In this document: in pieces, positions 11,945 to 52,349 of the stretch
Numbering within the stretch: position 1 is the first letter of the stretch
Layout: each line of letters begins with the position of its first letter
IMG/VR virus record: IMGVR_UViG_3300028392_000045
Location: 33,265-97,264 of that record
Reading direction: 5' to 3' (one strand)
DNA from: a virus
DNA length: 64,000 nt
Made by a program: the position numbers and the translations under genes
The notes under the pieces: model-generated
The model's input: the letters and a program-made list of their open reading frames with translations, nothing else
What the model was told of the DNA's origin: nothing
The model's database searches: none

Positions 11945-12603
11945 AAAGATTTCTTTGTTTTTACTGGAACCTGAATTGGTTGCATAATTTTAGGTTCAGA
12001 TATAGTTTGTTTAGCTATTACTTCTTTAGTCTCTGTACTATAAGTAGCAGTAGGTGTAATAAAAGTAGCTTGATCTTTTAGTTTTTCCTTGAATGCTAAC
12101 CAAGCATGTTCTAGCTGTACTCCAGAAACTATAGTAGGTAAAAACATTTTAGGACAATCCTTTCCTGTCATGTCATAATGTCTGTATACCTGATCAGTAG
12201 TTAACTTATGTTTACTTAATAGATTTTTTACTAGTTCTATAGTATTCTCTAATACTTTTTGTTGATTAGCTTCTTTGTATACACACATCTCTATACCAAT
12301 AAAAAAGTCATTAGGGTTTTGACCTTTAGGTACTAATGCATTTCTATAAGGTAGATTGTCAAATCTTTGCTTATCACCAATATGCCAAGCTACTTCATCA
12401 TCAGGTATAAGCTGAACTACTTCATGATCATCTACAAAATAATGAGCAGAAGCATTTACTTTATTCTTAGAGAAATATCTATAATGCGCTTGAGCATCTG
12501 CTTTAGATCCTACATTAGCAGTCCAGTGTATAATAATACCTTTAAGCTGTACTAGCTTTCTAAAAGGTCTATTGATAGTAATAAACTGTTGTGAAATATT
12601 CAT
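11908..12603 (-). CDS. N-acetylmuramoyl-L-alanine amidase (Amidase_2 type endolysin)
   Basis: 231 residues. The zinc-binding triad of the T7 lysozyme/PGRP family is visible as His26 (IIIHWTA), His142 (RHYDMTG) and Cys150 (KDCPK), with the conserved AHYFVDD segment between. It should cleave the bond between muramic acid and the peptide stem during lysis. The last 15 residues (KSLWSIIWAFILRM) are hydrophobic and could anchor the protein or act as a membrane-active tail. There is no N-terminal signal, so access would need the holin or this tail. It overlaps terL by 37 bp. Confidence 0.9.
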   Translation of the reverse strand: MNISQQFITINRPFRKLVQLKGIIIHWTANVGSKADAQAHYRYFSKNKVNASAHYFVDDHEVVQLIPDDEVAWHIGDKQRFDNLPYRNALVPKGQNPNDFFIGIEMCVYKEANQQKVLENTIELVKNLLSKHKLTTDQVYRHYDMTGKDCPKMFLPTIVSGVQLEHAWLAFKEKLKDQATFITPTATYSTETKEVIAKQTISEPKIMQPIQVPVKTKKSLWSIIWAFILRM

Positions 12604-12646
12604 ATCTTATAATTAAAAACTTTCAGGTATTAATCATACCTAAAAG

Positions 12647-13237
12647 CTAATCATCAAAAAAGTTTTCATCTTCTTCTACTCTAGTAAGTTTAATACCTGC
12701 TTTACCTCTTGCTACAGTCTTCTCTTCTAGGAATTTATTTCTAATCTTTTCATAAGATTCATAAATCTTAAGAGAATCTTTCTGTAGTAAATTTATTTGA
12801 GTAGCTGTACCTTTTTCTGTATACATTTTACCATTAGCATCCATTAAAGATCTGTCTAAAGTAAGCTCTGTATTCTTAATCAAGTCAGCTCTTTTAACTA
12901 GCTGCTCAATTTCTTCTTTTAAAGTCTTTTGTACAGTAGTCAAACAAAGATTAGTAAATTGACTCAATAAGGTATCTATATCATCACTCACTTTAGGTGC
13001 TAATGTCTCCATCAACATAGTTCGTCTAACCTCTTCTTTTACTCTATAGAAGATATTTAGATCTTCATCTGGATAAGTCATAAAGAAAATAAACCACATT
13101 ACCTTAGAAGACTCTACTTTATCCTTACTCTTATCTTCTTTGTATAGCGCATCAAAAGGCTTATACAACATAAAAGTAGGATTGAGTTCCCAGAAATTAG
13201 CAAGATGATTTATATTATCTGTATTTAGCTTTACCAT
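12647..13237 (-). CDS. Conserved phage protein of unknown function
   Basis: 196 residues, soluble and highly charged, with long helices (EEIEQLVKRADLIKNTELTLD) and an acidic end (VEEDENFFDD). It lies in the packaging operon before the amidase and overlaps the upstream gene by 7 bp. No nuclease, binding or membrane motif is seen. The position next to terL and amidase genes is compatible with a packaging or assembly role, which is inference. Confidence 0.6.
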   Translation of the reverse strand: MVKLNTDNINHLANFWELNPTFMLYKPFDALYKEDKSKDKVESSKVMWFIFFMTYPDEDLNIFYRVKEEVRRTMLMETLAPKVSDDIDTLLSQFTNLCLTTVQKTLKEEIEQLVKRADLIKNTELTLDRSLMDANGKMYTEKGTATQINLLQKDSLKIYESYEKIRNKFLEEKTVARGKAGIKLTRVEEDENFFDD

Positions 13238-13455
13238 GTAGGTATATATTTCTTTGTGATTACTTGACCTGACCTAGTAGTTGCAGAAATAACAACAACC
13301 TCTTTTACTTTCAGGTGAACTTCGTATGTAAAGTTATCTATCTTTTTGGCAGATATATAGTTGCCTTCTATCTTGCTAATCATACTTTCAAAACTAACTT
13401 CAATAGGTATTACTGAATTAAGTTTTGCGTAAGGAAGTTTAATTACTTCTTCCAT
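13231..13455 (-). CDS. Small protein of unknown function, beta-rich
   Basis: 74 residues, MEEVIKLPYAKLNSVIPIEV at the start, alternating hydrophobic strands and no cysteines. It overlaps the genes on both sides (13 bp and 7 bp), so it is probably translated with them as one unit. No function recognised. Confidence 0.55.
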   Translation of the reverse strand: MEEVIKLPYAKLNSVIPIEVSFESMISKIEGNYISAKKIDNFTYEVHLKVKEVVVISATTRSGQVITKKYIPTW

Positions 13456-21467: not shown

Positions 21468-21599
21468 ATGAGAATATATCACAATTCAAATTATTTTAGT
21501 TTTGCAAACCATAAAAATATTGGATTTGGATTAGGAGCTTCTAATTTTTATGTAAGGCATACATTTGATAAAAAATCAATTAATATCATACTACTCTGA
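21468..21599 (+). CDS. Micro-gene family member
   Basis: 43 residues from MRIYHNSNYF; a longer start at 21414 adds a hydrophobic leader. It has the family profile: Met-Arg-Ile start, aromatic middle, and end KSINIILL. Its stop lies at the first hairpin of the repeat cluster. Function unknown. Confidence 0.5.
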   Translation: MRIYHNSNYFSFANHKNIGFGLGASNFYVRHTFDKKSINIILL

Positions 21600-21999: not shown

Positions 22000-22226
22000 G
22001 TCCAGCACTTGCAGTACTTGCAATGATTATCATATGGGTTATGTATAATAGCCTTAACGTAACCTACAACGACAAACATAAGAATGAACTCAATTACCTT
22101 GCTTTTGATGCAGGGTTTGATCCAGAGCAGACTAAACATGAATTTCATGGTTTTAGCGCAGGGTGGATAATCATTCTATTTTGTCTATTTATAGCATTAG
22201 GCTATTGGTTTAAAACAACACTATGA
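21996..22226 (+). CDS. Small membrane protein with two segments
   Basis: 76 residues. Hydrophobic segments at about 2-20 (PALAVLAMIIIWVMYN) and 54-71 (GWIIILFCLFIALGYW) are separated by a polar, charged loop. It is in a chain of ATGA-overlapping genes. It could be a superinfection or membrane-modifying early protein. Function unknown. Confidence 0.55.
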   Translation: MSPALAVLAMIIIWVMYNSLNVTYNDKHKNELNYLAFDAGFDPEQTKHEFHGFSAGWIIILFCLFIALGYWFKTTL

Positions 22227-22348
22227 AAATCGTACATATTGTGTATACTAGCTCTTTTTCTATTTCTAAAAACTTTATTGATTTCATGGAATTAAAGCAT
22301 TTAGAGGAACCAACTACTAGATGCACTCAAAAAATTATATTTACATGA
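22223..22348 (+). CDS. Micro-gene family member
   Basis: 41 residues: MKIVHIVYTS start, end RCTQKIIFT. Both ends overlap neighbours by 4 bp (ATGA). It has the Met-Lys-Ile start and Ile-Ile end of the family. Function unknown. Confidence 0.5.
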   Translation: MKIVHIVYTSSFSISKNFIDFMELKHLEEPTTRCTQKIIFT

Positions 22349-25125: not shown

Positions 25126-25278
25126 ATGAAGTGCAAATTCTGTAATCAAAAAATGACAAAATCTTGTCAGAATAGACAAGCAGCTAATTCTTGTGGGTTT
25201 AAGGCTAAAAAGGAGGGTAACAACAAAAAGTCTCTAAAAGAAATTAATAGAGATGCAAAAAATAAAACAAGGCCATGA
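25126..25278 (+). CDS. Small zinc-ribbon-like basic protein
   Basis: 50 residues. MKCKFCNQKMTKSCQNRQ gives C3, C6 and C14, with a fourth Cys at 23 (NSCGFK). The rest is Lys-rich. It probably binds zinc and nucleic acid. It leads a chain of ATGA-overlapping genes up to the DNA polymerase. Confidence 0.55.
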   Translation: MKCKFCNQKMTKSCQNRQAANSCGFKAKKEGNNKKSLKEINRDAKNKTRP

Positions 25279-25460
25279 AAATAATTGACTTTTTTGTTAC
25301 AGATGCATTTTTAGTAGATTATGGAGTACTTTGTCCCGACTTATCTAAATATGCTCATCTAAATATTAAAATAAAATCCATTTTTGATGTGTTTGAAATC
25401 TCATCAGATGGGATTATAGAAATTTCAGATGTAACGAGCAAAACAATTATACTAATATGA
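25275..25460 (+). CDS. Micro-gene family member
   Basis: 61 residues: MKIIDFFVTD start, end TSKTIILI. Both ends overlap by ATGA. Longer than most members because of an acidic insert (ISSDGIIEISD). Function unknown. Confidence 0.55.
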   Translation: MKIIDFFVTDAFLVDYGVLCPDLSKYAHLNIKIKSIFDVFEISSDGIIEISDVTSKTIILI

Positions 25461-25585
25461 AATTATGTTATTTCTTTCAAGCTGCAAGATTTATGAAACC
25501 TTATAATGAGTCTTCTCTTTCTAGGATATACAACATAGTAGATGATGTTGATCCTGTAGATACAAAAAATATAATATGCATTTAA
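25457..25585 (+). CDS. Micro-gene family member
   Basis: 42 residues: MKLCYFFQAA start, end TKNIICI. It shares the C-terminal Asp-Thr-Lys-Asn-Ile-Ile with the next member, so the two look like recent duplicates. Overlaps of 4 and 10 bp. Confidence 0.5.
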   Translation: MKLCYFFQAARFMKPYNESSLSRIYNIVDDVDPVDTKNIICI

Positions 25586-25698
25586 ATATGAAGTATCAAT
25601 TTGCTAGATTTAGAAGTTATAAAGATTTTCTAAATTTAGAAATTAGTCTAGTGAAAAACGTTGATAATTTAGACACAAAAAATATAATCTTAATATGA
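25576..25698 (+). CDS. Micro-gene family member
   Basis: 40 residues from MHLNMKYQFA, or 36 from the second Met; the end is LDTKNIILI. It is closely related to the preceding member at the C terminus. ATGA overlap with the next gene. Confidence 0.5.
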   Translation: MHLNMKYQFARFRSYKDFLNLEISLVKNVDNLDTKNIILI

Positions 25699-25955: not shown

Positions 25956-28009
25956 TAGGTCTGGATATAGAAACCAGTAGAAAATACAAAAAAGGTACAT
26001 TTCCTGAAGAAGTATATAGACCAGGATTAGATCCATATACTTCAGTTGCCTGTCTGATGCAGCTAGGGACTTTAGAAAAGGTTTTTGTAATAGATACTCG
26101 TGTTATTGACATAAGTGCTTTAAAACCGATCCTAGAGTCTCCTAGCATAGTTAAAGTAGGTCATAATCTACAATTCGAATACAAACACATTCTACATAAT
26201 TTTTGTATTAAACTAGATAACATCTGGGATACCATGATATGTGAAAAAGTATTGTATAATGGTTTAGGTTTATCTAATAGTCTTGAAGCATTAGCTAATA
26301 GATATTTAGGTGTAGAATCTATAGAGACTATTAATCTATTTAATGAAGAAAAAGAAGATAAACACTCTGTCGAACCTTTAGATTCGACTGACAGTCTGGA
26401 TCTCCCATCCAGACAGTATATAGATAAATCAACTAGATTAGGTTTTATCAATATAGGAGATAGCCCATTCACCATAAAACAAATTATGTATGGTGCTGAT
26501 GATATTGTATATCCTCTTAAAATTAAGAAAATTCAAGAAAAAGGAAGAGAAGTTGGAGGAGTAATTTGGAATCCAAAAAATGCTTTCAAATTAGAAAATG
26601 CTACTGTATTAGTTTTAGCAGATATGTCACTTAGGGGTATTGGTTTTTCCAGAACTGTATGGTTAGATATTCTTAGTAAACAGTTACCTTTATTTGAGAA
26701 AAGAAAACAAATTCTTAATAAATGGGTAGAAGATAATGTACCTAAATTTTGTAGATCAGGTGATTTATTCTCTTCAATTCCTACTTGTGCTGTAGATTGG
26801 CAATCACCTACCCAAGTTGTAAAGCTTTTTAAGTATTTAGGAATATGTCCTAGAGAGGTATCTAAATCTACTAAAAAGTTAGAATACACAGTAGGTGCTA
26901 AAGAACTTCTAAAGACCATGAGAGCTGAATTACAAGAAAGCTATAGTTATAATAAGGATAAACCTATAGATAGCTTAGAAGAGCTTAAATTGGCTTATTT
27001 GCTATTTAAAAAATCACAAATGTCTTGTACTACTTTTGGTGCAAGCTGGTTAGATTATGTACATCCTATTACAGGAAGAGTACATTCTAACTTTAATCAG
27101 TATATGAACTCCTCTCGATTATCATCAAATAATCCAAATATACAAAATTTACCTCAAGGAGAATACAGAGATGCATTTATTCCTTCACCTTTAACTGACT
27201 TTATATCAGTAGATTATGCAAGTCAAGAGGTAAGAATTTTAGCTGATGTTTCTGCTAATCCAGTAATGGAAGATTTCTTTGTAAATGGTTCAAAAATATT
27301 TGGGGACGATATGCATTCATTTTCTGCTACTCAAATGATGAGAGCAAAGACAGGTGATGATACTATTGTAGTTTCTAAGAAATCACATCCCAAAGAAAGA
27401 AATATATCTAAGTCGTTAACCTTCTCATTAAGCTATGGAGGTTCAGCGCATTCAATCAAATTTAAGTTAGGATTAGAGTTAGAAGAAACTGAAACATTTA
27501 TTCAGTCTTTTTTTGATGGCTTTCCTGGACTTGAAGAAGATTTTACAAATAGAAAGAAATTCGCCATAGATAATGGCTATATAATATTAGACAAAGCAAC
27601 AGATAGACGCTACTTTTTTCCTCAGTATGAAAAAATGAAAAAAGCAGAAGAGTTAGCTAAATCTTACTACACAAGAGATATGTCTGCTGAAGAAAGAGCA
27701 GAAGTTAAATTAATACCAGAAGTAAAAGAAGCTTGGAAAACTTTTTTTACTCTAAAAGGAAAGCTAGAAAGAAGAGCATTAAATTATGGAATTCAAGGTC
27801 TTGCTGCCGGAATGACAAAATTAGCTTTAGTACTACTATATAAAGCAGGAATAGCACTTGTTTCTTGTGTACATGATGAAATATGTGCAGAAGGAAATGA
27901 AAAAGATGCAAAAACTATAGAAAGACTGATGATAGAGGCAGGAAAATACTTTTGTAAACGAGTTCCAATGGGCGCAGAAGCATCTGTAGGAGATAAATGG
28001 ATACATTGA
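25862..28009 (+). CDS. Family A DNA polymerase with 3'-5' exonuclease
   Basis: 715 residues. Exonuclease motifs: Asp35 and Glu37 in GLDIETS, VGHNLQFEYKH, and YGADDIVYP. Polymerase motif A is SVDYASQEVRILA (Asp451), motif B RNISKSLTFSLSYGG (Arg513), and motif C CVHDEICAE (His671-Asp672-Glu673). It replicates the phage genome. Between exonuclease motifs II and III (about residues 168-186) the gene contains a 52-bp double hairpin (26366-26417) read as VEPLDSTDSLDLPSR, probably an inserted element kept in frame. Its start follows a micro-gene junction, and its stop overlaps a TTG-started micro-gene. Confidence 0.93.
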   Translation: MEILFIGNQLFNECKTSTIEEAVSYFSNQSIIGLDIETSRKYKKGTFPEEVYRPGLDPYTSVACLMQLGTLEKVFVIDTRVIDISALKPILESPSIVKVGHNLQFEYKHILHNFCIKLDNIWDTMICEKVLYNGLGLSNSLEALANRYLGVESIETINLFNEEKEDKHSVEPLDSTDSLDLPSRQYIDKSTRLGFINIGDSPFTIKQIMYGADDIVYPLKIKKIQEKGREVGGVIWNPKNAFKLENATVLVLADMSLRGIGFSRTVWLDILSKQLPLFEKRKQILNKWVEDNVPKFCRSGDLFSSIPTCAVDWQSPTQVVKLFKYLGICPREVSKSTKKLEYTVGAKELLKTMRAELQESYSYNKDKPIDSLEELKLAYLLFKKSQMSCTTFGASWLDYVHPITGRVHSNFNQYMNSSRLSSNNPNIQNLPQGEYRDAFIPSPLTDFISVDYASQEVRILADVSANPVMEDFFVNGSKIFGDDMHSFSATQMMRAKTGDDTIVVSKKSHPKERNISKSLTFSLSYGGSAHSIKFKLGLELEETETFIQSFFDGFPGLEEDFTNRKKFAIDNGYIILDKATDRRYFFPQYEKMKKAEELAKSYYTRDMSAEERAEVKLIPEVKEAWKTFFTLKGKLERRALNYGIQGLAAGMTKLALVLLYKAGIALVSCVHDEICAEGNEKDAKTIERLMIEAGKYFCKRVPMGAEASVGDKWIH
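26366..26417. repeat. Double hairpin inside the DNA polymerase gene
   Basis: GTCGAA/TTCGAC with loop CCTTTAGA (26369-26388) is followed after TGACA by GTCTGGAT/ATCCAGAC with loop CTCCC (26394-26414). The first stem-loop recurs at 29373-29392 with the same 8-nt loop and a compensatory change (GTTGAA/TTCAAC). Length 52 bp, reading frame maintained. Confidence 0.75.
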
Positions 28010-28140
28010 AAATTATACTTTACTATCATGGGACGGATAACAAGACTTCAATGCAATTTGCGATGTTGGATGTTAGAGAAAGTGTAGCAAGATTGGAAGC
28101 AAAAGTGAGAAATAAAAAACAAAACTTAATAATAGTATGA
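28006..28140 (+). CDS. Micro-gene family member with TTG start
   Basis: 44 residues. The start codon is TTG, overlapping the polymerase stop in TTGA, in place of the usual ATGA. The product would be MKIILYYHGTDNK with end QNLIIV. The alternative ATG at 28054 would remove the conserved N terminus. Confidence 0.5.
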   Translation: MKIILYYHGTDNKTSMQFAMLDVRESVARLEAKVRNKKQNLIIV

Positions 28141-28274
28141 AATTGGTAGGACAACTTGGTGATGTCAGTTACAATAGTAGCAAATACATGAATAGACCAG
28201 ATAATTTAAGATATTTGTCTAATTTAGGGATTACTGTAGATTATGTTTTATCTCAATTTATGTTATTTATATGA
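28137..28274 (+). CDS. Micro-gene family member
   Basis: 45 residues: MKLVGQLGDV start, end SQFMLFI. ATGA overlaps at both ends. Function unknown. Confidence 0.5.
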   Translation: MKLVGQLGDVSYNSSKYMNRPDNLRYLSNLGITVDYVLSQFMLFI

Positions 28275-28411
28275 GCTTAATAGTAAATTATTGTGGAGGA
28301 AGATTTACTACTAAAATGGAATCAGAATTTCAATTACATAGTTGTTGGTGGGATGAAAATCCTATTTTTGTATATGATTATACAGGCCAATTTATAAACT
28401 TAATTTATTAA
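28271..28411 (+). CDS. Micro-gene family member
   Basis: 46 residues: MSLIVNYCGG start, Trp-rich middle, end FINLIY. TAA stop, followed by a 17-bp gap, so it closes a sub-chain. Confidence 0.45.
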   Translation: MSLIVNYCGGRFTTKMESEFQLHSCWWDENPIFVYDYTGQFINLIY

Positions 28412-28428: not shown

Positions 28429-28566
28429 ATGTACTTTTTCCTAATTGAGTATACTATTGGACAAGAATGGAAACATAAAACTGTTAGAGCAGATAATGCT
28501 TTTATGGCTAAAATGAAAGCTCCATTTGGTGCTAGGAATATTAAAGCTTATAAGGTAGCGTCATGA
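28429..28566 (+). CDS. Small basic protein
   Basis: 45 residues, MYFFLIEYTIGQEWKHKTVR at the start, ending AYKVAS. It lacks the Ile-rich end of the micro-gene family but is joined to the next member by ATGA. Function unknown. Confidence 0.45.
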   Translation: MYFFLIEYTIGQEWKHKTVRADNAFMAKMKAPFGARNIKAYKVAS

Positions 28567-28736
28567 ATTTATTAAACCACAATCTTGGGTCTGCTTATCA
28601 TAACTGCTATGATCAAGTAAAATACATATTTTATAAAAGTTCTAATTTGCCACCTTATTATCCTAGCAATAGTACTCAAATCTTAATTTTATCAAAGTAC
28701 AATATTTTTACTTTCGTGATTGCTACTATAATATGA
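28563..28736 (+). CDS. Micro-gene family member, extended
   Basis: 57 residues: MNLLNHNLGS start. The typical end (STQILIL) is followed by 14 more residues ending in a second Ile-rich tail (IATII). It probably lost the junction stop and acquired the next one. ATGA overlaps. Confidence 0.45.
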   Translation: MNLLNHNLGSAYHNCYDQVKYIFYKSSNLPPYYPSNSTQILILSKYNIFTFVIATII

Positions 28737-29533: not shown

Positions 29534-29686
29534 ATGAATATTAGAATGACTTACATATTAGCAGATTTTAATAAATTTGTTTTTAAGGCTAATAACTATA
29601 GAACTGTATGCTTAAAGCCTCAAAAATGGTGTGCTAATATAGAATTAGGAACTGAATCAGAAGCTTGTTTAATAATAAAGCTATGA
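29534..29686 (+). CDS. Micro-gene family member
   Basis: 50 residues: MNIRMTYILA start, end EACLIIKL. It is the first gene after the hairpin cluster. ATGA overlap with the next. Confidence 0.5.
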   Translation: MNIRMTYILADFNKFVFKANNYRTVCLKPQKWCANIELGTESEACLIIKL

Positions 29687-29850
29687 AGTTACGTATTTAT
29701 TACACTGGTCATTGTTATTACCCATATGAAGAAATGCTTAAAAGATTTTCTAAAAGGCCAGTAAGTACTGATATAAATCTTTGGAGTGATTACTACGAAC
29801 AATTTAGTAAAACACATCCTTCTAAAACTGATATAATAGTAACAATATGA
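29683..29850 (+). CDS. Micro-gene family member
   Basis: 55 residues: MKLRIYYTGH start, Tyr-rich, end KTDIIVTI. ATGA overlaps both sides. Confidence 0.55.
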   Translation: MKLRIYYTGHCYYPYEEMLKRFSKRPVSTDINLWSDYYEQFSKTHPSKTDIIVTI

Positions 29851-29984
29851 AGATAGTAATTTTCTATACTAAAACAAGTTATCAAGATGCTTATTACTTA
29901 AATTTTTTAAAATTAAGCAAAGATCTTGCTATTTCTTTTAACGATATTTTTGATTCAGAAGGATGTAGATTAATAATAAAATGA
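29847..29984 (+). CDS. Micro-gene family member
   Basis: 45 residues: MKIVIFYTKT start, end CRLIIK. ATGA overlaps both sides. The N terminus resembles the preceding member (MKLRIYYTGH). Confidence 0.55.
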   Translation: MKIVIFYTKTSYQDAYYLNFLKLSKDLAISFNDIFDSEGCRLIIK

Positions 29985-30121
29985 AATTAGAAAATCGCTT
30001 TTTTACTACTTCTTATCGTGAATATTATGGAGCATATAAAAGTCATTTTATAAAAGAACCAAGATATTATTTTCTAATTAGAGCAACAGAAAATCTTAAT
30101 AATATGCTGATATGGATTTAA
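29981..30121 (+). CDS. Micro-gene family member
   Basis: 46 residues: MKLENRFFTT start, Tyr-rich, end NNMLIWI. TAA stop; the next start lies 10 bp inside it. Confidence 0.5.
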   Translation: MKLENRFFTTSYREYYGAYKSHFIKEPRYYFLIRATENLNNMLIWI

Positions 30122-30246
30122 AATTATGTTTATACCTAAAAAATTATTTATCAGACTATTATAAAGTGTTTAATTTTGAATACAGTAATAGTGGAACTAT
30201 TGAACCAGGATTTTTTACTGAAACTCAAATAATAGTAAAATTATGA
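30112..30246 (+). CDS. Micro-gene family member
   Basis: 44 residues: MDLKLCLYLK start, end TQIIVKL. Overlaps of 10 bp upstream and ATGA downstream. Confidence 0.5.
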   Translation: MDLKLCLYLKNYLSDYYKVFNFEYSNSGTIEPGFFTETQIIVKL

Positions 30247-30377
30247 TAATACTTATTTATTCTAAGAGGGATAGATACAATACATCAAATTTTGAAATAG
30301 CCTTAGACACACTTACAAGTCCTTTACTTGTTAGTTTTCATCTTAAACATAATACTCGTTTAATTACATTCATATGA
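30243..30377 (+). CDS. Micro-gene family member preceding the helicase
   Basis: 44 residues: MIILIYSKRD start, end TRLITFI. Its stop overlaps the helicase start by ATGA, so this chain feeds translation of a core replication gene. Confidence 0.5.
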   Translation: MIILIYSKRDRYNTSNFEIALDTLTSPLLVSFHLKHNTRLITFI

Positions 30378-45754: not shown

Positions 45755-46001
45755 GGAAGATGCTTTATCTAATTTTAAGCAAGTAGCAGCTATTGTTGGC
45801 ATTACACCAGAGCAAGTATGTCTTGTATTAATTGCAGTGAAAGCTTCCAGATTAGGTAATCTATTTATTCAAAATTTAGATCCTCAAAACGAGAGTATTG
45901 AAGACAGTGCAAAAGATTTAACTATCTATACTATGCTTTTGCAAATGATTCTTCAGGATCATCTACAAAATATAATTAAAACTGCACAATCTGATCTATA
46001 A
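45663..46001 (+). CDS. DUF1599-like protein (nucleotide-modification-associated type)
   Basis: 112 residues. The segment MKSKRTDYSSKEDALSNFKQ, then AIVGITPEQVCLVLIAVKASRLGNLF, matches the small helical DUF1599 pattern (Lys-x-x-Asp-Tyr, Ala-x-x-Asn-Phe, Lys-x-x-Arg). Some members accompany phage nucleotide modification enzymes; related all-alpha pyrophosphatases are another possibility. The C terminus is helical. Last gene before the terminator and micro-gene array. Confidence 0.6.
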   Translation: MTPQQQEQYFDQIVEAMSKIMKSKRTDYSSKEDALSNFKQVAAIVGITPEQVCLVLIAVKASRLGNLFIQNLDPQNESIEDSAKDLTIYTMLLQMILQDHLQNIIKTAQSDL

Positions 46002-46027
46002 TTTTTTGCTTTTAATCTCAATGCTTG

Positions 46028-46068
46028 GGGGTAGATACTGTGTAAAAAGCAGGAGGCTACCCCTTTTT
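46028..46068 (+). terminator. Rho-independent terminator before the main array
   Basis: GGGGTAG and CTACCCC form a 7-bp stem with a 22-nt loop, followed by TTTTTAA, 13 bp before the first array start. Confidence 0.7.
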
Positions 46069-46080
46069 AATTTGTAAATT

Positions 46081-46221
46081 ATGGAATTAAAAAAAGAAGA
46101 AGGACATTTATGCTATCATATGAGTGCTTATCACATGATACATTACTCATATAGATTTCATATTTATCAGACTTTTATTATTTTAGGCACAGACGATACT
46201 GTATTAATAGGAATGATATGA
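46081..46221 (+). CDS. Micro-gene array member 1
   Basis: 46 residues: MELKKEEGHL start, His/Tyr-rich middle (YHMSAYHMIHYSYRFH), end LIGMI. ATGA overlap with the next unit. First unit after the terminator. Confidence 0.5.
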   Translation: MELKKEEGHLCYHMSAYHMIHYSYRFHIYQTFIILGTDDTVLIGMI

Positions 46222-46361
46222 TAATTAAATCAGGTGGTTTATACATTAGCTATTTTGCTTATCATTGTAGCTTTCTTACAAAAGAAATTAGTTTTACATA
46301 CCCCATCAGGAAAGTAAGTATTTCTGATGAATCAACTTCTTTAATGCTAATAAAAATATGA
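46218..46361 (+). CDS. Micro-gene array member 2
   Basis: 47 residues: MIIKSGGLYI start, end SLMLIKI. ATGA overlaps at both ends. Confidence 0.5.
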   Translation: MIIKSGGLYISYFAYHCSFLTKEISFTYPIRKVSISDESTSLMLIKI

Positions 46362-46495
46362 ATTTACAGGCTTATGAAAGTTTTCTATTACATGATAGCT
46401 ATTATCAAGAACTAGAAAACCTATTCGAATTTTTTCCTTATAGTGATATATATTTTGTGGATAATACTTTTTCACATTCAATTATTTTAACATGA
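46358..46495 (+). CDS. Micro-gene array member 3
   Basis: 45 residues: MNLQAYESFL start, acidic and aromatic middle, end HSIILT. ATGA overlaps. Confidence 0.5.
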   Translation: MNLQAYESFLLHDSYYQELENLFEFFPYSDIYFVDNTFSHSIILT

Positions 46496-46617
46496 AAATA
46501 CTTGTACGTAATGACTAGATGGGAGATCACTCTTCTGCTCATTATGTAAAACTCACTTTATGTTGGTCAGATATAAGAATAGATAACTTAACAAAAAAAT
46601 TGATAGTATGTGTGTAA
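46492..46617 (+). pseudogene. Micro-gene array member 4, interrupted by TAG
   Basis: The expected start gives MKILVRND, then an in-frame TAG (46516-46518), then ATG and 32 more codons ending KKLIVCV. The two parts together have normal length and ends. Either the unit is inactivated, or translation restarts at 46519. TAG is a genuine stop elsewhere in this phage. Confidence 0.45.
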
Positions 46618-46751
46618 TCTTGAATAATAGTTATGTACACTATGATAAATATATTTATCGAAAGTCTATAATATTAAATATAGTACCAGCACATCCATTC
46701 AATGTGTTTACAAAAAGAAGTACAGCATCAAAATTAATAGTAATATGCTGA
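46608..46751 (+). CDS. Micro-gene array member 5
   Basis: 47 residues: MCVILNNSYV start, end SKLIVIC. The start lies 10 bp inside the previous unit, and the stop 7 bp inside the next. Confidence 0.5.
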   Translation: MCVILNNSYVHYDKYIYRKSIILNIVPAHPFNVFTKRSTASKLIVIC

Positions 46752-46891
46752 TAAAAGGCCATGCAAGTGTTCTCTGTTTTTATATGGATAAAGACAGAAT
46801 AAAAAATTACATCGTTACAGGAGTAAAAACTTTTGGTAGTGTTAAGTCAAGTAGATACTATGAAATAACTCATACAATTATTATATTATGA
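46745..46891 (+). CDS. Micro-gene array member 6
   Basis: 48 residues: MLIKGHASVL start, Lys/Arg-rich, end HTIIIL. ATGA overlap downstream. Confidence 0.5.
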   Translation: MLIKGHASVLCFYMDKDRIKNYIVTGVKTFGSVKSSRYYEITHTIIIL

Positions 46892-47037
46892 GAATAATAT
46901 GTGTATCTGATAGTGGTAAATATTTTTACGAGCAGAAAAATTTTGATAAAATAGAATGGTGCTCTTATGGTTCAATGTTAGGTGATCGTAATTACACTAA
47001 TGCAATTATATTATGCGAATCAAAACTATACTTATAG
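46888..47037 (+). CDS. Micro-gene array member 7, run-on end
   Basis: 49 residues: MRIICVSDSG start. The usual end (TNAIIL) is followed by nine extra residues to a TAG, overlapping the next unit by 25 bp. Confidence 0.45.
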   Translation: MRIICVSDSGKYFYEQKNFDKIEWCSYGSMLGDRNYTNAIILCESKLYL

Positions 47038-47156
47038 GAATCAATTTTCTTCATGTAGACATTTCTAGTATTAATTTAATATTTCAAGATATTAAAATGC
47101 TAGATCATTTTACAGCAGTCTATCCTGGCTGTTCACAAATTATAAATTTAAACTGA
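47013..47156 (+). CDS. Micro-gene array member 8
   Basis: 47 residues: MRIKTILIGI start, end SQIINLN. The next gene starts within its stop (TGATG). Confidence 0.5.
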   Translation: MRIKTILIGINFLHVDISSINLIFQDIKMLDHFTAVYPGCSQIINLN

Positions 47157-47461
47157 TGAGAGAGATAAACATTCCCGAAAGCTTGAAAGAGCAAATTATT
47201 GAAATGCGTAACATGGCAGGTATTTCGATAGAGCCAGCTAAAACGACTCACGATCGTCTACATTCATTTCTTTCTGGTGAGCCTAACGATCAACTGCAAA
47301 AAGTAATGAATGTTTGTATGAAAGCTTATAAGCCTTATATGACAGTATCTCCATTAATGTTACAGTCCTATGGTGTGGCTATGTACTGCTTACCAGAATG
47401 TAATGATACAGAGCTACTAAAAATTGCTAAAGAGATTTATGAGACGTTAAGTCACATGTAA
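47156..47461 (+). CDS. Helical protein inserted in the array
   Basis: 101 residues, MREINIPESLKEQIIEMRNM at the start, all helical, Met-rich. Codon use is less A/T-rich than the flanking micro-genes, indicating a different origin or selection. TGATG-coupled to the preceding unit. No family recognised. Confidence 0.55.
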   Translation: MREINIPESLKEQIIEMRNMAGISIEPAKTTHDRLHSFLSGEPNDQLQKVMNVCMKAYKPYMTVSPLMLQSYGVAMYCLPECNDTELLKIAKEIYETLSHM

Positions 47462-47493
47462 TTTTAAATTTCAAAATCTTTAATTTTAAAAAC

Positions 47494-47643
47494 ATGAAAA
47501 AGAAAACCAGAAACATCAATATAGAAGAATTGGCTATTGTCAATATTCTAATTTTTACAATCGGATTATGCATGAGTTCTTTAATGGGACTTGTATTTTG
47601 TGGGTTGTATACTTTCTTTTCGTTAGTAGAATTTGACAAATGA
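47494..47643 (+). CDS. Small membrane protein in the array
   Basis: 49 residues. Basic N terminus (MKKKTRN) and one long or two short hydrophobic segments (IVNILIFTIGLCMSSLMGLV, then LYTFFSLV). ATGA overlap with the next unit. Confidence 0.5.
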   Translation: MKKKTRNINIEELAIVNILIFTIGLCMSSLMGLVFCGLYTFFSLVEFDK

Positions 47644-47771
47644 AATTGACAAAACATTATTATAAACCTATTTTATTTGATAAAAGAATTACGGATATAT
47701 TAAGAGTAGATATATTTGATAATATTTTAGGACAAGGAAAATTTTTTACTCCTATAATGGTATTGATATGA
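47640..47771 (+). CDS. Micro-gene array member 9
   Basis: 43 residues: MKLTKHYYKP start, end PIMVLI. ATGA overlaps. Confidence 0.5.
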   Translation: MKLTKHYYKPILFDKRITDILRVDIFDNILGQGKFFTPIMVLI

Positions 47772-47911
47772 TGCTGAAAACAAACTATGTGAATTTTACT
47801 TACCATCATGGTTATTTTTACTTTGCATCTAAAAGTGCGCAACCTATACAAGGTAGATATACTAGTAATCATGAATCTTATGATGAAGCAAATTTAATAG
47901 TAATAATATGA
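47768..47911 (+). CDS. Micro-gene array member 10
   Basis: 47 residues: MMLKTNYVNF start (double ATG), end ANLIVII, close to the junction consensus. ATGA overlaps. Confidence 0.5.
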   Translation: MMLKTNYVNFTYHHGYFYFASKSAQPIQGRYTSNHESYDEANLIVII

Positions 47912-48039
47912 AAATACAATTTAGAATATCAGGCATAGCTTATTTCCTAGACAAACAAAAATCAGGATTAAGTAATCCTAGTGAAGATTTAAAATATTTT
48001 GCAAAATGGAATACTAAAGAATTGATACTATGGAACTGA
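47908..48039 (+). CDS. Micro-gene array member 11
   Basis: 43 residues: MKIQFRISGI start, end KELILWN. The next start lies 10 bp inside. Confidence 0.5.
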   Translation: MKIQFRISGIAYFLDKQKSGLSNPSEDLKYFAKWNTKELILWN

Positions 48040-48209
48040 ATCTACATTATGTACCATTCTTCTATGGATCAATAATTACAAGAACTGATTTTATAAGATT
48101 TCAATTGGATGGTGAGTATCGCATTGAACACTTTATCAAAACGTCAACTTACCTGGATGCAGCTATATTTGAGGAGGTAGACGATAGTGCTTTTTTGATT
48201 TTAGTATAA
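48030..48209 (+). CDS. Micro-gene array member 12
   Basis: 59 residues, longer than most: MELNLHYVPF start, acidic insert (FEEVDDSA), end FLILV. TAA stop. Confidence 0.5.
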   Translation: MELNLHYVPFFYGSIITRTDFIRFQLDGEYRIEHFIKTSTYLDAAIFEEVDDSAFLILV

Positions 48210-48219
48210 CTGAAAAATT

Positions 48220-48366
48220 ATGCAAGTAATCTTAATCAGACCAAGTTATCATCCTTGTAATTATTTAATGCCTTATTATGTTAGAAATGCGTCATCAATT
48301 GACTTAACTTTACTATGTTACTTACGCATTCCTAGTCATGGTAATATCATCACACAAATACATTAA
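48220..48366 (+). CDS. Micro-gene array member 13
   Basis: 48 residues: MQVILIRPSY start, end NIITQIH. Separated from neighbours by 10 bp and 1 bp, so not overlapping. Confidence 0.45.
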   Translation: MQVILIRPSYHPCNYLMPYYVRNASSIDLTLLCYLRIPSHGNIITQIH

Positions 48367-48367
48367 T

Positions 48368-48511
48368 ATGCATTTAGAATACTTTTACAATAGTATAGGC
48401 TATTATGATAATGAGGTAAACATAAATTTAGAACTTCTTCCTAACTGTAGTCCAATAGAAAAAGCTCTTACATCAATTTTATGGGATGCAAAATTAATTA
48501 TAGCTATATGA
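48368..48511 (+). CDS. Micro-gene array member 14
   Basis: 47 residues: MHLEYFYNSI start, end AKLIIAI. ATGA overlap downstream. Confidence 0.5.
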   Translation: MHLEYFYNSIGYYDNEVNINLELLPNCSPIEKALTSILWDAKLIIAI

Positions 48512-48639
48512 ACATAAAAACATACTTAACTAATCGTACAAAGCATTATAAAATGAGTTTTGACTCTGATATTGCTAGAGGTATATATAATGCAAAAAGA
48601 AGTAATAGGTTTCACTCAACTTTTCTAATATGTTTATAG
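48508..48639 (+). CDS. Micro-gene array member 15
   Basis: 43 residues: MNIKTYLTNR start, basic, end STFLICL. TAG stop, 10 bp inside the next unit. Confidence 0.5.
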   Translation: MNIKTYLTNRTKHYKMSFDSDIARGIYNAKRSNRFHSTFLICL

Positions 48640-48740
48640 TAAATAAATATGGATGCGGAGAGTTTTGGTATAAACAGACACTATTTCTGTATTATGACCA
48701 TTTAGATGAAATATATTACGGATTAAAACTAATAGAATGA
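48630..48740 (+). CDS. Micro-gene array member 16, short
   Basis: 36 residues: MFIVNKYGCG start, end GLKLIE. ATGA overlap downstream. Confidence 0.45.
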   Translation: MFIVNKYGCGEFWYKQTLFLYYDHLDEIYYGLKLIE

Positions 48741-48874
48741 AACTATATACTTACAATCCAAGTATTACACACTGCCATCATAATAGACACAGCTTCTTTA
48801 ATCAGTCAAATACATTTTTTATTAGAGTATTTGGTATTAGTGAAGACTTTACTAACACAATAATTATAATATGA
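48737..48874 (+). CDS. Micro-gene array member 17
   Basis: 45 residues: MKLYTYNPSI start, His-rich middle, end TNTIIII. Shares MKLY with the next unit. Confidence 0.55.
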   Translation: MKLYTYNPSITHCHHNRHSFFNQSNTFFIRVFGISEDFTNTIIII

Positions 48875-49005
48875 AACTATACTCTTATTATAGGTTTTCT
48901 TTTTATAACAGTTACCAGCGCCAATGTAAAAATATAGTAAAAGATGATTATATTCTTATTGATTCTATTGATCCAGATGCTAGTACACTATTAATACTAA
49001 TCTAA
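48871..49005 (+). CDS. Micro-gene array member 18
   Basis: 44 residues: MKLYSYYRFS start, end STLLILI. TAATG coupling to the next unit. Confidence 0.55.
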   Translation: MKLYSYYRFSFYNSYQRQCKNIVKDDYILIDSIDPDASTLLILI

Positions 49006-49142
49006 TGAAGTTAAAATTATTACAATCAGGTGTAGGATACCATCAAAAGAATATCCATATAATAAATTCTACTGCCTTCTTAGGGATTTTTCATATCTCA
49101 AATAATGTATATTTAAATAACTCAATGTTAGCATGGATCTAA
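49005..49142 (+). CDS. Micro-gene array member 19
   Basis: 45 residues: MKLKLLQSGV start, end NSMLAWI. The next start lies 10 bp inside. Confidence 0.5.
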   Translation: MKLKLLQSGVGYHQKNIHIINSTAFLGIFHISNNVYLNNSMLAWI

Positions 49143-49276
49143 AAGCTATTACAGTAGGAAATGGATATACCGATTATCTAGTCCATTACCAATTTAATTC
49201 AGTGATGAGATATCCTACCAAATTCACTATCAAATTCACAAATAAAATACTTAATAATCTAATTTGTATCCAATGA
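49133..49276 (+). CDS. Micro-gene array member 20
   Basis: 47 residues: MDLKAITVGN start, similar to the previous unit in Gly-Tyr position, end NNLICIQ. ATGA overlap. Confidence 0.5.
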   Translation: MDLKAITVGNGYTDYLVHYQFNSVMRYPTKFTIKFTNKILNNLICIQ

Positions 49277-49431
49277 TGATAATAGCTAAATATACTCTGC
49301 ACCATTTTGATTTAAGTCAACATCACAGCAATCTTAATGATAATAGATTTTGTCCTATTCATCCATTAGATATTGATGGAAGTATTAGTGTAATGACAAA
49401 AAGATTAAGCAACAAAATAATTCTAGCATGA
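49273..49431 (+). CDS. Micro-gene array member 21
   Basis: 52 residues: MMIIAKYTLH start, His-rich, end NKIILA. ATGA overlaps. Confidence 0.5.
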   Translation: MMIIAKYTLHHFDLSQHHSNLNDNRFCPIHPLDIDGSISVMTKRLSNKIILA

Positions 49432-49562
49432 GTATAGATATATTTAGAGCTAGACATTGTTTTGGCAGTTTAATGCTAAGTACAATAACTCACAATTATA
49501 TTTATCCATCTGTTAATTATGGAAGTTATTCTTACAGAGCAAATCTAATAATAAATATATGA
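49428..49562 (+). CDS. Micro-gene array member 22
   Basis: 44 residues: MSIDIFRARH start, end ANLIINI. ATGA overlaps. Confidence 0.5.
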   Translation: MSIDIFRARHCFGSLMLSTITHNYIYPSVNYGSYSYRANLIINI

Positions 49563-49681
49563 AAATAAATCTAGTGTTATTAGCACGACCAAAGCTTTAT
49601 AGACCTGTAGCTTTTCAAAATTATAAAGCTTATTTACCTTTAGAAAATAAAGAATTTAATTTGCAAATTTGTATACAATGA
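49559..49681 (+). CDS. Micro-gene array member 23
   Basis: 40 residues: MKINLVLLAR start, end LQICIQ, like member 20. ATGA overlaps. Confidence 0.5.
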   Translation: MKINLVLLARPKLYRPVAFQNYKAYLPLENKEFNLQICIQ

Positions 49682-49803
49682 GAATACATCCATCAAAATT
49701 CAATAATCATTATTTCTCTAGGAGAAATTATAAATCAGAACCTAATAAATGTTTGTTGTATATAGGCTATTTACTTTATGGAACTGTAATAATAGAAATA
49801 TGA
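49678..49803 (+). CDS. Micro-gene array member 24
   Basis: 41 residues: MRIHPSKFNN start, end TVIIEI. ATGA overlaps. Confidence 0.5.
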   Translation: MRIHPSKFNNHYFSRRNYKSEPNKCLLYIGYLLYGTVIIEI

Positions 49804-49937
49804 TTTTATTTAGAAATGATTTTCATACTTATTATTCTTTACACATATCTCATATTTGGATTGAATATCCTAATTGTAGTTGGCTTCTTGTAGATAGTCC
49901 AGCAAAAACTAAAACATCTAATTTAATATTGTTATGA
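49800..49937 (+). CDS. Micro-gene array member 25
   Basis: 45 residues: MILFRNDFHT start, end SNLILL. A longer start at 49749 lies within the previous unit and is unlikely. ATGA overlaps. Confidence 0.5.
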   Translation: MILFRNDFHTYYSLHISHIWIEYPNCSWLLVDSPAKTKTSNLILL

Positions 49938-50065
49938 TGCTAAGAGTTAAAAAGATGCCTACTAATTTTATAAATAGACAACACTTTTATAAAGAGTCAT
50001 GGTGGACATTAGGGCAAATAAATCATCTGAATAGCCATTCCAATACAAAAATAATTTTGATATGA
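49934..50065 (+). CDS. Micro-gene array member 26
   Basis: 43 residues: MMLRVKKMPT start (double ATG), end TKIILI. ATGA overlaps. Confidence 0.5.
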   Translation: MMLRVKKMPTNFINRQHFYKESWWTLGQINHLNSHSNTKIILI

Positions 50066-50193
50066 AAATTAAAAGAGGAAGGTTTCTAAGTGCTTATTTT
50101 ATGCATGTATCAAATTTTTCAAATATTCCTAATTTAGATATTAATTTAAAAGTAAGCTATTTTTCACATACTTGTAAACTTAAATTAATATAA
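50062..50193 (+). CDS. Micro-gene array member 27
   Basis: 43 residues: MKIKRGRFLS start, end CKLKLI. TAATG coupling. Confidence 0.5.
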   Translation: MKIKRGRFLSAYFMHVSNFSNIPNLDINLKVSYFSHTCKLKLI

Positions 50194-50324
50194 TGGAATT
50201 AGATTGCAGATATTTTGGGGCTTCTCATTATAAAATTGATCCTGCTGCTCATAAAACTAATACTGGAATTTATTATATATCTGGTAAACCTAATGGACTT
50301 ACAAAAAATTTAATATGGATATGA
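50193..50324 (+). CDS. Micro-gene array member 28
   Basis: 43 residues: MELDCRYFGA start, end KNLIWI. Its stop overlaps the HNH gene start (ATGA). Confidence 0.5.
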   Translation: MELDCRYFGASHYKIDPAAHKTNTGIYYISGKPNGLTKNLIWI

Positions 50325-50572
50325 ATGATCGGTACAGAGCTAGGAAGCATAAAGTAAGATATGAGAAAATAGATAAAAATCTTGTGTACGACAGGGATGG
50401 ATGGAAATGCTATATCTGTGGTATTTTCATCTCTCCTAGTCCTGGCTATGACTTACCTTACAATGCTACCTTAGATCATGTAATACCTATGTCTAAAGGA
50501 GGAGACCATACTTATGATAATGTTAGAGCTTGCTGCTATTCCTGTAATCAGAAAAAAGATGACTCATTGTGA
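50321..50572 (+). CDS. HNH endonuclease inserted in the array
   Basis: 83 residues from MNDRYRARKH; a start two codons upstream is possible, but this one keeps the ATGA overlap. Zinc-binding Cys pairs (KCYIC and CYSCN) flank the HNH core ATLDHVIPMSKGGDHTYDN. A compact nuclease of this kind is often a homing or mobile gene. It has replaced or joined an array unit with both overlaps intact. Confidence 0.85.
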   Translation: MNDRYRARKHKVRYEKIDKNLVYDRDGWKCYICGIFISPSPGYDLPYNATLDHVIPMSKGGDHTYDNVRACCYSCNQKKDDSL

Positions 50573-50712
50573 ATCTAAAAGACTTTACTCAAAGCTACCT
50601 ATGTTATTACTATGATCAAGAATATGTTTGGAGTAATAATGGTTTTAGCTGTTATAAAACAGAAATTTTAAATATCTCAAGGGCAGATGGCTACTTAATA
50701 ATAGAAATATGA
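50569..50712 (+). CDS. Micro-gene array member 29 with GTG start
   Basis: 47 residues. GTG overlaps the HNH stop (GTGA): MNLKDFTQSY start, end GYLIIEI. The rare start suggests that a preserved overlap matters more than the codon. Confidence 0.5.
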   Translation: MNLKDFTQSYLCYYYDQEYVWSNNGFSCYKTEILNISRADGYLIIEI

Positions 50713-50831
50713 ATTTAAGAACACAATATAAATATGCAAATTTCCTTTCCTTATGTGATGTAACTGAATTTTGGAGAGCTGGAATGTATTTTGGATATAG
50801 GAATAAAACTAATTTAATAATACTATTATGA
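50709..50831 (+). CDS. Micro-gene array member 30
   Basis: 40 residues: MNLRTQYKYA start, end TNLIILL. ATGA overlaps. Confidence 0.5.
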   Translation: MNLRTQYKYANFLSLCDVTEFWRAGMYFGYRNKTNLIILL

Positions 50832-50962
50832 AAATAACTTATCATGTATTTGATTCTAGCTTTGAAGATACATACAGATATATTCGTGCTAATATAAATA
50901 ATAGCTTAGAACAATCTCCTTTAGTTTACCTAACTGATACTAGTCATTTAATTTTAATCTAA
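50828..50962 (+). CDS. Micro-gene array member 31
   Basis: 44 residues: MKITYHVFDS start, end SHLILI. TAATG coupling. Confidence 0.5.
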   Translation: MKITYHVFDSSFEDTYRYIRANINNSLEQSPLVYLTDTSHLILI

Positions 50963-51153
50963 TGCACTTAACTGTATATTACACAACACCTTGGTTTTCT
51001 ATAAAAATACAACGGCCTTTAATTAAATCCATATTTACTAGTATGAACATAAATATGTATAATCATCTGATTACTCATAATAGCATAAAAGACAATACTA
51101 AATTATTAAAACTTGAATTATGCCATTACTATGAAATTAAATATATACAATAA
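50962..51153 (+). CDS. Micro-gene array member 32, run-on end
   Basis: 63 residues: MHLTVYYTTP start. The family-like end (TKLLKLEL) is followed by 10 residues overlapping the next unit by 23 bp. Confidence 0.45.
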   Translation: MHLTVYYTTPWFSIKIQRPLIKSIFTSMNINMYNHLITHNSIKDNTKLLKLELCHYYEIKYIQ

Positions 51154-51262
51154 TTTTACTGGATACTTTAGTTCTGAAGTATTAAGAAATAATGCAGTTT
51201 ATTACACGTATTATGTATCTGAAAAAGCAACATCACTTAATAAAAATTTAATACTAATATGA
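51131..51262 (+). CDS. Micro-gene array member 33
   Basis: 43 residues: MKLNIYNNFT start, Tyr-rich, end KNLILI. ATGA overlap. Confidence 0.55.
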   Translation: MKLNIYNNFTGYFSSEVLRNNAVYYTYYVSEKATSLNKNLILI

Positions 51263-51384
51263 AACTAGTAAACTATCATGATTATCAAGCATACATTTTT
51301 AGACATATCCCATCAAATAGCTTAAGTAAATGTGATATTGTAAAACATTGTAAAGTACATAAAAATTTACTTTTCTTTATCTAA
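51259..51384 (+). CDS. Micro-gene array member 34, last of the early arm
   Basis: 41 residues: MKLVNYHDYQ start, end NLLFFI. Its last 18 bp overlap, on the other strand, the vestigial tail at 51367-51435, marking the convergent boundary of the two arms. Confidence 0.5.
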   Translation: MKLVNYHDYQAYIFRHIPSNSLSKCDIVKHCKVHKNLLFFI

Positions 51385-51435
51385 ATACAAATCTTGAAGT
51401 GTATATAAGGGGCGTAACTGCTTGACTTGACTCAT
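51367..51435 (-). pseudogene. Second copy of the C-terminal tail of the giant virion protein
   Basis: 22 codons starting at an ATG that overlaps the GIY-YIG stop (ATGA): MSQVKQLRPLYTLQDLYLD followed by Lys-Glu-Lys and TAA. The tail of the 2295-residue protein ends QLSPLYNLEDLYVD, Lys-Asn-Lys; 13 of the last 20 residues are identical. It is probably the original 3' end of that gene, separated by the homing endonuclease insertion. Confidence 0.7.
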
Positions 51436-52349
51436 GTTCGTATATATTTGAGAGTCAATCCAATTCCAGCACTTCCTTTATTTAAACCTTCAGGATATTT
51501 AGTACCTAATAAATTAATCCAATAGTCTTCTTTATTTTTTAATTCATGGGCTTTACCTTTTTCTAATTCTTTTATAGATAACAAATTCATGTCTTTGCCT
51601 GTTAAGAATTCAGTTAATTTAGTATTATTTCTCTTTTTAAGCACAGTTTCTTTATGTGCTCCAAGTCTTGTAGATAATCGTCTTGTAGTTAATCCTACAT
51701 AAGGTATTACTTCATTATCATATACTAATTGATAGATAAACCCTTCTGATTCAGGATGTACACTTTTATTACTACATGCAGAACAACCTCTATTTTTTGA
51801 AAGAATATTACAAGGTTTAGTTTCAAAGCTAGTTTTACATTCTTTACATGTGACTTCTACTTTGCCTAATCTTCTAAAAGGATATTCTATTTCTCTAAAA
51901 TCATAAATGTCACCATTTCGCTCAATACTTTTTTCTACAAAAGAGTCAAATGATTTTCTTGTTATGTGGCCTGATATTAAACTTCCACATTTAGAACATC
52001 CTCTTCCTTCTAAATGATCTTTAGCTGTTTGCTCAAAGTCCCCATGATCTTTACAAGTTATTATCAATTTTTTCTTCCCTCCTACATACACAGATTTAGT
52101 ATAGTTATATCTACCTTTGTGTTTTTCTATTGCTCTATTTATCCAGTAAGATGTTTTATCTATTGCACATTCTATTGTAGGTTTAGATCTAGTTAAACTT
52201 TGAGCTTGAACTTCGAGTAATCCATAATGATCTTGTACTAAAATCTTATTTCTTTGCCTTTTAAATTCACCAATAATTGTTAATTGTGGATTTGCTTGTG
52301 CAACTCTTTTTGTAAAATTTTCTAGTATTAATTCAGTAATACGTGTCAT
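51432..52349 (-). CDS. GIY-YIG homing endonuclease with zinc-finger DNA-binding region
   Basis: 305 residues. Two repeated Cys modules lie at about residues 108-125 and 170-195 (ITCKDHGDFEQ with GCSKCG; VTCKECKTSFE with GCSACS), resembling the DNA-binding zinc repeats of phage endonucleases. The GIY-YIG core is near residue 206: FIYQLVYDNEVIPYVGLTTR with the later Arg and His, followed by NKEDYWINLLGT. It starts 17 bp after the stop of the giant virion gene and is followed by a copy of that gene's tail, so it inserted close to the 3' end. Confidence 0.85.
   Translation of the reverse strand: MTRITELILENFTKRVAQANPQLTIIGEFKRQRNKILVQDHYGLLEVQAQSLTRSKPTIECAIDKTSYWINRAIEKHKGRYNYTKSVYVGGKKKLIITCKDHGDFEQTAKDHLEGRGCSKCGSLISGHITRKSFDSFVEKSIERNGDIYDFREIEYPFRRLGKVEVTCKECKTSFETKPCNILSKNRGCSACSNKSVHPESEGFIYQLVYDNEVIPYVGLTTRRLSTRLGAHKETVLKKRNNTKLTEFLTGKDMNLLSIKELEKGKAHELKNKEDYWINLLGTKYPEGLNKGSAGIGLTLKYIRT

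Follow-up and report, generated by a model that had tools for sequence, protein, structure and literature searches.

Introduction

Phages are usually viewed as countering diverse host defences with a handful of small inhibitors that are unrelated to one another. Among the closest described systems, the host-takeover module of SPO1 comprises 26 mostly small early genes (PMC6873191), and cassettes of diversity-generating retroelements (DGRs) have been described in Zeta crAss-like phages (PMC12386605). Here we analyze a stretch of viral DNA of 64,000 nucleotides (hereafter the window; bases 33265-97264 of the 97,264-base IMG/VR record IMGVR_UViG_3300028392_000045), in which positions 46081-51384 of the + strand carry an array of 34 overlapping small genes, hereafter units, together with three non-unit genes. 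The window phage (G000) is crAss-like (Crassvirales-type), as seen from its major capsid protein, portal and terminase profiles and from a giant RNA-polymerase-subunit-like gene. Judged by their sequences, the window units are one protein family, and we consider this family, its layout and its recurrence in a second phage, taken jointly, to be nearly certain. The family and the layout are solid; the reading of the units as a repertoire of binders directed against the host is tentative.

Layout of the unit array

The original prediction, made from the letters alone, had described about 34 consecutive small overlapping frames in 5.3 kb, and this was both confirmed and strengthened. The 34 array units span 36-63 codons (about 45 typical), and the longest automatically built chain of overlapping 28-70 codon open reading frames (ORFs) has 21 members; when the region was dinucleotide-shuffled 200 times, the longest chain never exceeded 3 (mean 1.4). 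Fifteen more units are dispersed between replication genes, bringing the window total to 49, near the "roughly 51 peptides" predicted, and together they take up ~7% of the length of the phage genome. The joints among these units include 26 ATGA overlaps (-4), six 10-bp overlaps and three TAATG joints (-1); three unit starts (48368, 48508 and 49800) were set at the junction instead of at the start of the longest ORF (48338, 48481 and 49749). All units lie on the strand of the replication genes, amid the DNA polymerase, helicase and primase genes, and the array itself closes the + strand replication block, convergent with the giant - strand gene. No unit-like ORF was found on the opposite strand. 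Apart from 46492-46617, which has an in-frame TAG, every window unit is open (48 of 49), and two units (46888 and 50962) extend beyond the usual end into the next unit; these three cases are signs of occasional decay.

A shared protein frame around a variable middle

When the 49 units are anchored at their N termini, 48 have L, I or V as residue 3 (p ~1e-25 for the LIVM class) and 39 have Y or F as residue 12 (p ~4e-24), with G, S, A and T favoured at residues 9-11. Anchored at the C termini, position -15 is aliphatic (LIVM) in 32 of 49 units, position -7 is D, N, S, T or K in 37 of 49 (mostly T, S or N), and positions -5 to -1 are hydrophobic. The resulting plan has an M-x-[L/I] start and a G/A/S-rich stretch closing with an aromatic residue (residues 9-12), followed by the hypervariable middle and then the hydrophobic C-terminal strand; the constant ends and the variable middles of the prediction both held. 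In leave-one-out profile scoring the units reach a median of 4.4, compared with a mean of -21.8 for 1,960 shuffled units (sd 8.7, max 6.9). The relationship is visible only in such position-specific analysis: in the all-against-all comparison of the peptides, which the prediction had called for, the middles are no more alike than shuffles and cannot be aligned, and whole window units score hardly above shuffles.

Although the middles lack pairwise similarity, their codon periodicity, ~20 times that of shuffles, argues that they are coding. Relative to the expectation for AT-rich random ORFs, they contain less I, L and V and more D, W, P and H. The predicted richness in Tyr, Phe and His is for the most part that of any AT-rich ORF, Tyr and Phe mostly reflecting AT-richness and the fixed aromatics. 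The hydrophobic pattern and residue propensities suggest, as had been proposed, a beta-type fold; two of the 49 units are membrane-protein-like. Codons starting with G are scarce in the units, and GC skew across 46001-52000 falls from ~+0.1 to ~-0.04 inside the array.

Unit ends carry a start signal and a protein frame

Upstream of the ATG, A stands at -12, -11 and -10 in the ordinary genes of the window phage. The units keep the A at -12 and -11 and have T at -10, -7, -4 and -1, which are the middle letters of the preceding unit's hydrophobic codons, as well as T at +7 in 38 of the 38 units compared. This period-3 T pattern and the T at +7 belong to the units only and are missing from ordinary start regions. 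In addition, A is commoner as the last letter of L/I codons at position 3 than of internal L/I codons, both in this phage and in the second one described below. The constant ends are thus real but not purely protein, and overlay two things: the A-rich signal with which genes of this phage ordinarily start, to which the A at -12 and -11 belongs, and a protein frame foreign to ordinary genes. From the T/A pattern it follows that the last strand of each unit is at the same time the start region of its successor. Such a layout would make each unit a self-contained cassette, placeable before any ATG gene, as at the helicase gene at 30374, to which the last of six dispersed units (30243-30377) is joined by ATGA. 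The notion of "exchangeable units" gains from the several locations and from each unit ending in the next gene's start signal, but exchange between phages was not seen.

These patterns also bear on whether the units are an artefact, either long genes split by standard-code reading of a recoded genome or ORFs implied by AT-rich start signals. Recoded-stop crAss-like phages do exist (PMC7886860), and one record, L008, needed TAG read as sense. However, freeing any single stop codon in the array yields a longest open stretch of only 121-142 codons, adjacent units are read in different frames, the ordinary genes of the window phage stop at TAA, TGA and TAG, no tRNA gene occurs in the window, and the period-3 T is not seen before ordinary genes, making an artefact extremely improbable. 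A recoded gene set was rejected since the units do not fuse when one stop is read as sense, and an array of tRNAs or structured RNAs was rejected on the missing tRNA genes and the lack of any Rfam match in the region. The giant gene of L008 (NC_055892.1, cr109_1) has 11 in-frame stops with the standard code and is open with code 15, unlike the window phage.

A second, distant phage carries the family

Scanning IMG/VR with a two-junction DNA pattern returned 12 stretches, one of which is IMGVR_UViG_3300016474_000281 (G024; 102,932 bases), found by this DNA pattern alone. G024 holds a chain of 37 units and 66 units in all. It is crAss-like but distant from the window phage, with capsid, portal and terminase proteins 37%, 31% and 34-41% identical, respectively, and a different DNA polymerase. 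The window profile gives the G024 units a mean of +0.6 versus -22.7 for shuffles and, with terminal residues excluded, -3.4 versus -11.0 (sd 6.5). Their frame reads M-x-[LI]-x5-G-[GSA]-x-[YFH] ... S-x-[hydrophobic strand], in which the window frame is only partly kept (G at 9-10, S/G at 11, S at -7). In both phages, units also sit ahead of other replication-block genes.

Relatives recovered by terminase, capsid and polymerase scans present a different picture. The best of them, G001, is much closer to the window phage than G024 is (capsid 71%, polymerase 67-71% identical) and has no units; in the equivalent stretches it carries small genes that are unrelated, together with a similar HNH gene. 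The small HNH genes lie at corresponding places (50315-50572 on the + strand of the window; G001 L019, 3633-3881, on the - strand), with an array around the window copy only. Since the units occur in the distant G024 and not in the closer G001, the family must have been gained and lost, or be mobile between phages.

No match was obtained by megablast and blastn of the window against 50,697 phage records or by tblastn of one G024 unit against phages, and neither close strains of the window phage nor, in scans with single proteins (the giant protein and the exonuclease), close relatives were found. Profile search of 23 related records gave no units, the profile being weak. A second DNA pattern (MEL joints) revealed no further array among the at least 120 matches listed, and none was present among 18 genome-contig matches. 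In 395 Bacteroidota genomes the single match was rejected, being full of stops and lacking other units. These collection scans used patterns tuned to the two arrays and would miss shorter or more diverged ones.

Growth of the family and selection on its members

In G024, neighbouring units resemble each other: similarity at lag 1 is 21.3 against 9.2 for random pairs (none of 2000 permutations was as high), and neighbours are also more alike at lags 2-4 (p 0.0025 or less for lags 1-4). A four-unit block is duplicated there (12484-12936 versus 12959-13426; matching pairs 12484/12959, 12692/13176 and 12799/13283). No such neighbour signal is left in the window, bar single pairs such as 25457/25576, its closest pair; the window array may be older or shuffled. 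The counting estimate of dN/dS between close unit pairs is 0.3-1.0 and, with ~40 codons and sites near saturation, shows only weak or diversifying constraint. The shared frame, the recurrence in G024, the tandem and block duplication there and the fairly high dN/dS all support the prediction's "diversifying family of small proteins".

The main rival to the repertoire reading is that the family grew nearly neutrally, proliferating by recombination at similar junctions with its frames kept open so that translation of the operon is undisturbed, merely translatable and without repertoire function. In line with this, the amino acid composition of whole units lies closer to that of random AT-rich ORFs (0.043 bits) than the composition of ordinary genes does (0.099 bits), dN/dS between close copies is high, one unit carries an in-frame TAG and two run into the next, and G001 does without the family. 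However, residues 3, 7, 11, 12, -15 and -7 and the C-terminal strand are kept over 49 units and partly over the 66 of G024, nearly all window units are open, and the middles combine strong codon periodicity with an aliphatic-poor, D/W/P/H-rich composition that departs from the neutral expectation. The residues conserved far inside the frame make pure neutrality hard to uphold, though they would be compatible with a weak function; on balance we consider nearly neutral growth unlikely.

Genomic setting

The capsid, portal and terminase proteins of the window phage match PHROGs 11589, 6547 and 6681, and the giant 2295-aa protein (- strand) matches, in its C-terminal part, RNA-polymerase-subunit genes of crAss-like phages. 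All units, and the other genes within the array, are listed in Table 1. The terminase large subunit (8615-11944, - strand, 1109 aa) contains an intein with a LAGLIDADG domain at ~residues 192-545, which is absent from L002, L003, L013 and L014; the G001 terminase aligns across the intein. Adjoining the capsid gene, 2273-3445 (- strand, 390 aa) encodes resolvase-type helix-turn-helix domains fused to a LAGLIDADG domain.

Table 1. Units in the window and non-unit genes within the array.
Feature	Strand	Coordinates	Length (aa)	Remark
Unit 1	+	46081-46221	46	
Unit 2	+	46218-46361	47	
Unit 3	+	46358-46495	45	
Unit 4	+	46492-46617		TAG after residue 8
Unit 5	+	46608-46751	47	
Unit 6	+	46745-46891	48	
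Unit 7	+	46888-47037	49	25 bp into next unit
Unit 8	+	47013-47156	47	
Non-family gene	+	47156-47461	101	no PHROGs or Pfam match
Hydrophobic gene	+	47494-47643	49	judged non-unit
Unit 9	+	47640-47771	43	
Unit 10	+	47768-47911	47	
Unit 11	+	47908-48039	43	
Unit 12	+	48030-48209	59	
Unit 13	+	48220-48366	48	
Unit 14	+	48368-48511	47	
Unit 15	+	48508-48639	43	
Unit 16	+	48630-48740	36	
Unit 17	+	48737-48874	45	
Unit 18	+	48871-49005	44	
Unit 19	+	49005-49142	45	
Unit 20	+	49133-49276	47	
Unit 21	+	49273-49431	52	
Unit 22	+	49428-49562	44	
Unit 23	+	49559-49681	40	
Unit 24	+	49678-49803	41	
Unit 25	+	49800-49937	45	
Unit 26	+	49934-50065	43	
Unit 27	+	50062-50193	43	
Unit 28	+	50193-50324	43	
HNH endonuclease	+	50315-50572	85	in array
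Unit 29	+	50569-50712	47	GTG start
Unit 30	+	50709-50831	40	
Unit 31	+	50828-50962	44	
Unit 32	+	50962-51153	63	into next unit
Unit 33	+	51131-51262	43	
Unit 34	+	51259-51384	41	
Dispersed unit	+	21468-21599	43	
Dispersed unit	+	22223-22348	41	
Dispersed unit	+	25275-25460	61	first of three ahead of DNA polymerase gene
Dispersed unit	+	25457-25585	42	second of three
Dispersed unit	+	25576-25698	40	third of three
Dispersed unit	+	27997-28140	47	first of three directly behind DNA polymerase gene
Dispersed unit	+	28137-28274	45	second of three
Dispersed unit	+	28271-28411	46	third of three
Dispersed unit	+	28563-28736	57	
Dispersed unit	+	29534-29686	50	first of six
Dispersed unit	+	29683-29850	55	second of six
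Dispersed unit	+	29847-29984	45	third of six
Dispersed unit	+	29981-30121	46	fourth of six
Dispersed unit	+	30112-30246	44	fifth of six
Dispersed unit	+	30243-30377	44	last of six

Possible function of the units

Profile searches of the family in Pfam, PHROGs and PDB gave no match. From the position on the replication strand, the small size, the rapid change and the fixed frame with its variable middle, a host-takeover or anti-defence role appears to fit best, by analogy with the SPO1 module and anti-CRISPR (Acr) clusters (PMC6873191, PMC7886860). In the mechanism we propose, a multicopy family of phage proteins of about 45 residues with a single scaffold would be encoded as self-contained cassettes. 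The sequence shows that the NTA-rich codons of each C-terminal strand also bear the A-12/A-11 signal from which the next gene starts, that stop codons overlap start codons, and that in G024 the cassettes multiply by tandem and block duplication. The cassettes would probably be transcribed early in infection together with the replication genes and translated serially, with re-initiation following each termination. Both constant terminal strands may contribute to a common core, with the middle as a variable surface. The whole set would act as a binder repertoire whose targets lie in the host, be they its defence systems or its machinery. That the units are host-takeover or anti-defence binders of this kind is a tentative reading, possible rather than probable. 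The stronger proposal, that dozens of co-translated, tandem-duplicated micro-proteins meet many host factors at once and so amount to a binder library without a reverse transcriptase, is somewhat doubtful.

Several findings weigh against the repertoire. Only two array-bearing phages were found, and the relative G001 does without the array; no known anti-defence family in Pfam or PHROGs is matched; and the high dN/dS could mean relaxed constraint, not an arms race. PADLOC, whose models describe defence rather than anti-defence, likewise gave no credible match.

Two other functions would draw on the same features. The constant hydrophobic strands at both ends might be sticky and let neighbours translated together assemble in the infected cell, as a mixed polymer or a ring, and overlapping cistrons would place neighbours close together in similar amounts. 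Such a self-assembling or structural set seems quite unlikely, however, because single units and groups of three also occur outside the array, hypervariable middles are unusual among assembly partners, and the units accompany replication genes, not virion genes. One scaffold, a variable surface and growth by duplication, features common with the repertoire reading, might equally suit an immunity or superinfection repertoire in which each unit neutralises another toxin or competing phage, but neither a toxin gene nor a partner could be recognised in the neighbourhood and PADLOC offered no credible match, leaving this with a low probability.

If the binder repertoire is real, it would be a separate phage strategy in which diversity is stored as copies, 49 variants here and 66 in a distant phage. 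It would allow the diversification of small proteins around an unchanging frame to be put to the test, and the units would represent a new family of tiny folds. Should the units prove ordinary anti-defence proteins, the novelty of the system would shrink.

Comparison with known systems

Our literature search agrees with the original prediction that no described phage system has this layout. Acr arrays are not known to occur as 34 same-scaffold members in a row. They resemble the present array in that short phage genes, evolving fast and lacking relatives in databases, follow one another (PMC7886860). The SPO1 module shares with it many small neighbouring phage genes, and the place of the array on the replication strand may point to early expression too; however, that module has several operons, promoters, ribosome sites and diverse effects, whereas the array is one family joined by stop-to-start overlaps. 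The short-ORF regions of Zeta crAss-like phages likewise contain short ORFs without recognisable products, but in mixed polarities (PMC7886860), while the units lie on one strand and share a common profile. A DGR, which also sets a variable part within a constant frame, was rejected for this locus: reverse transcriptase (PF00078) is absent from G000, G024 and G001 in searches that included positive controls, and the variants are separate paralogous genes from duplication.

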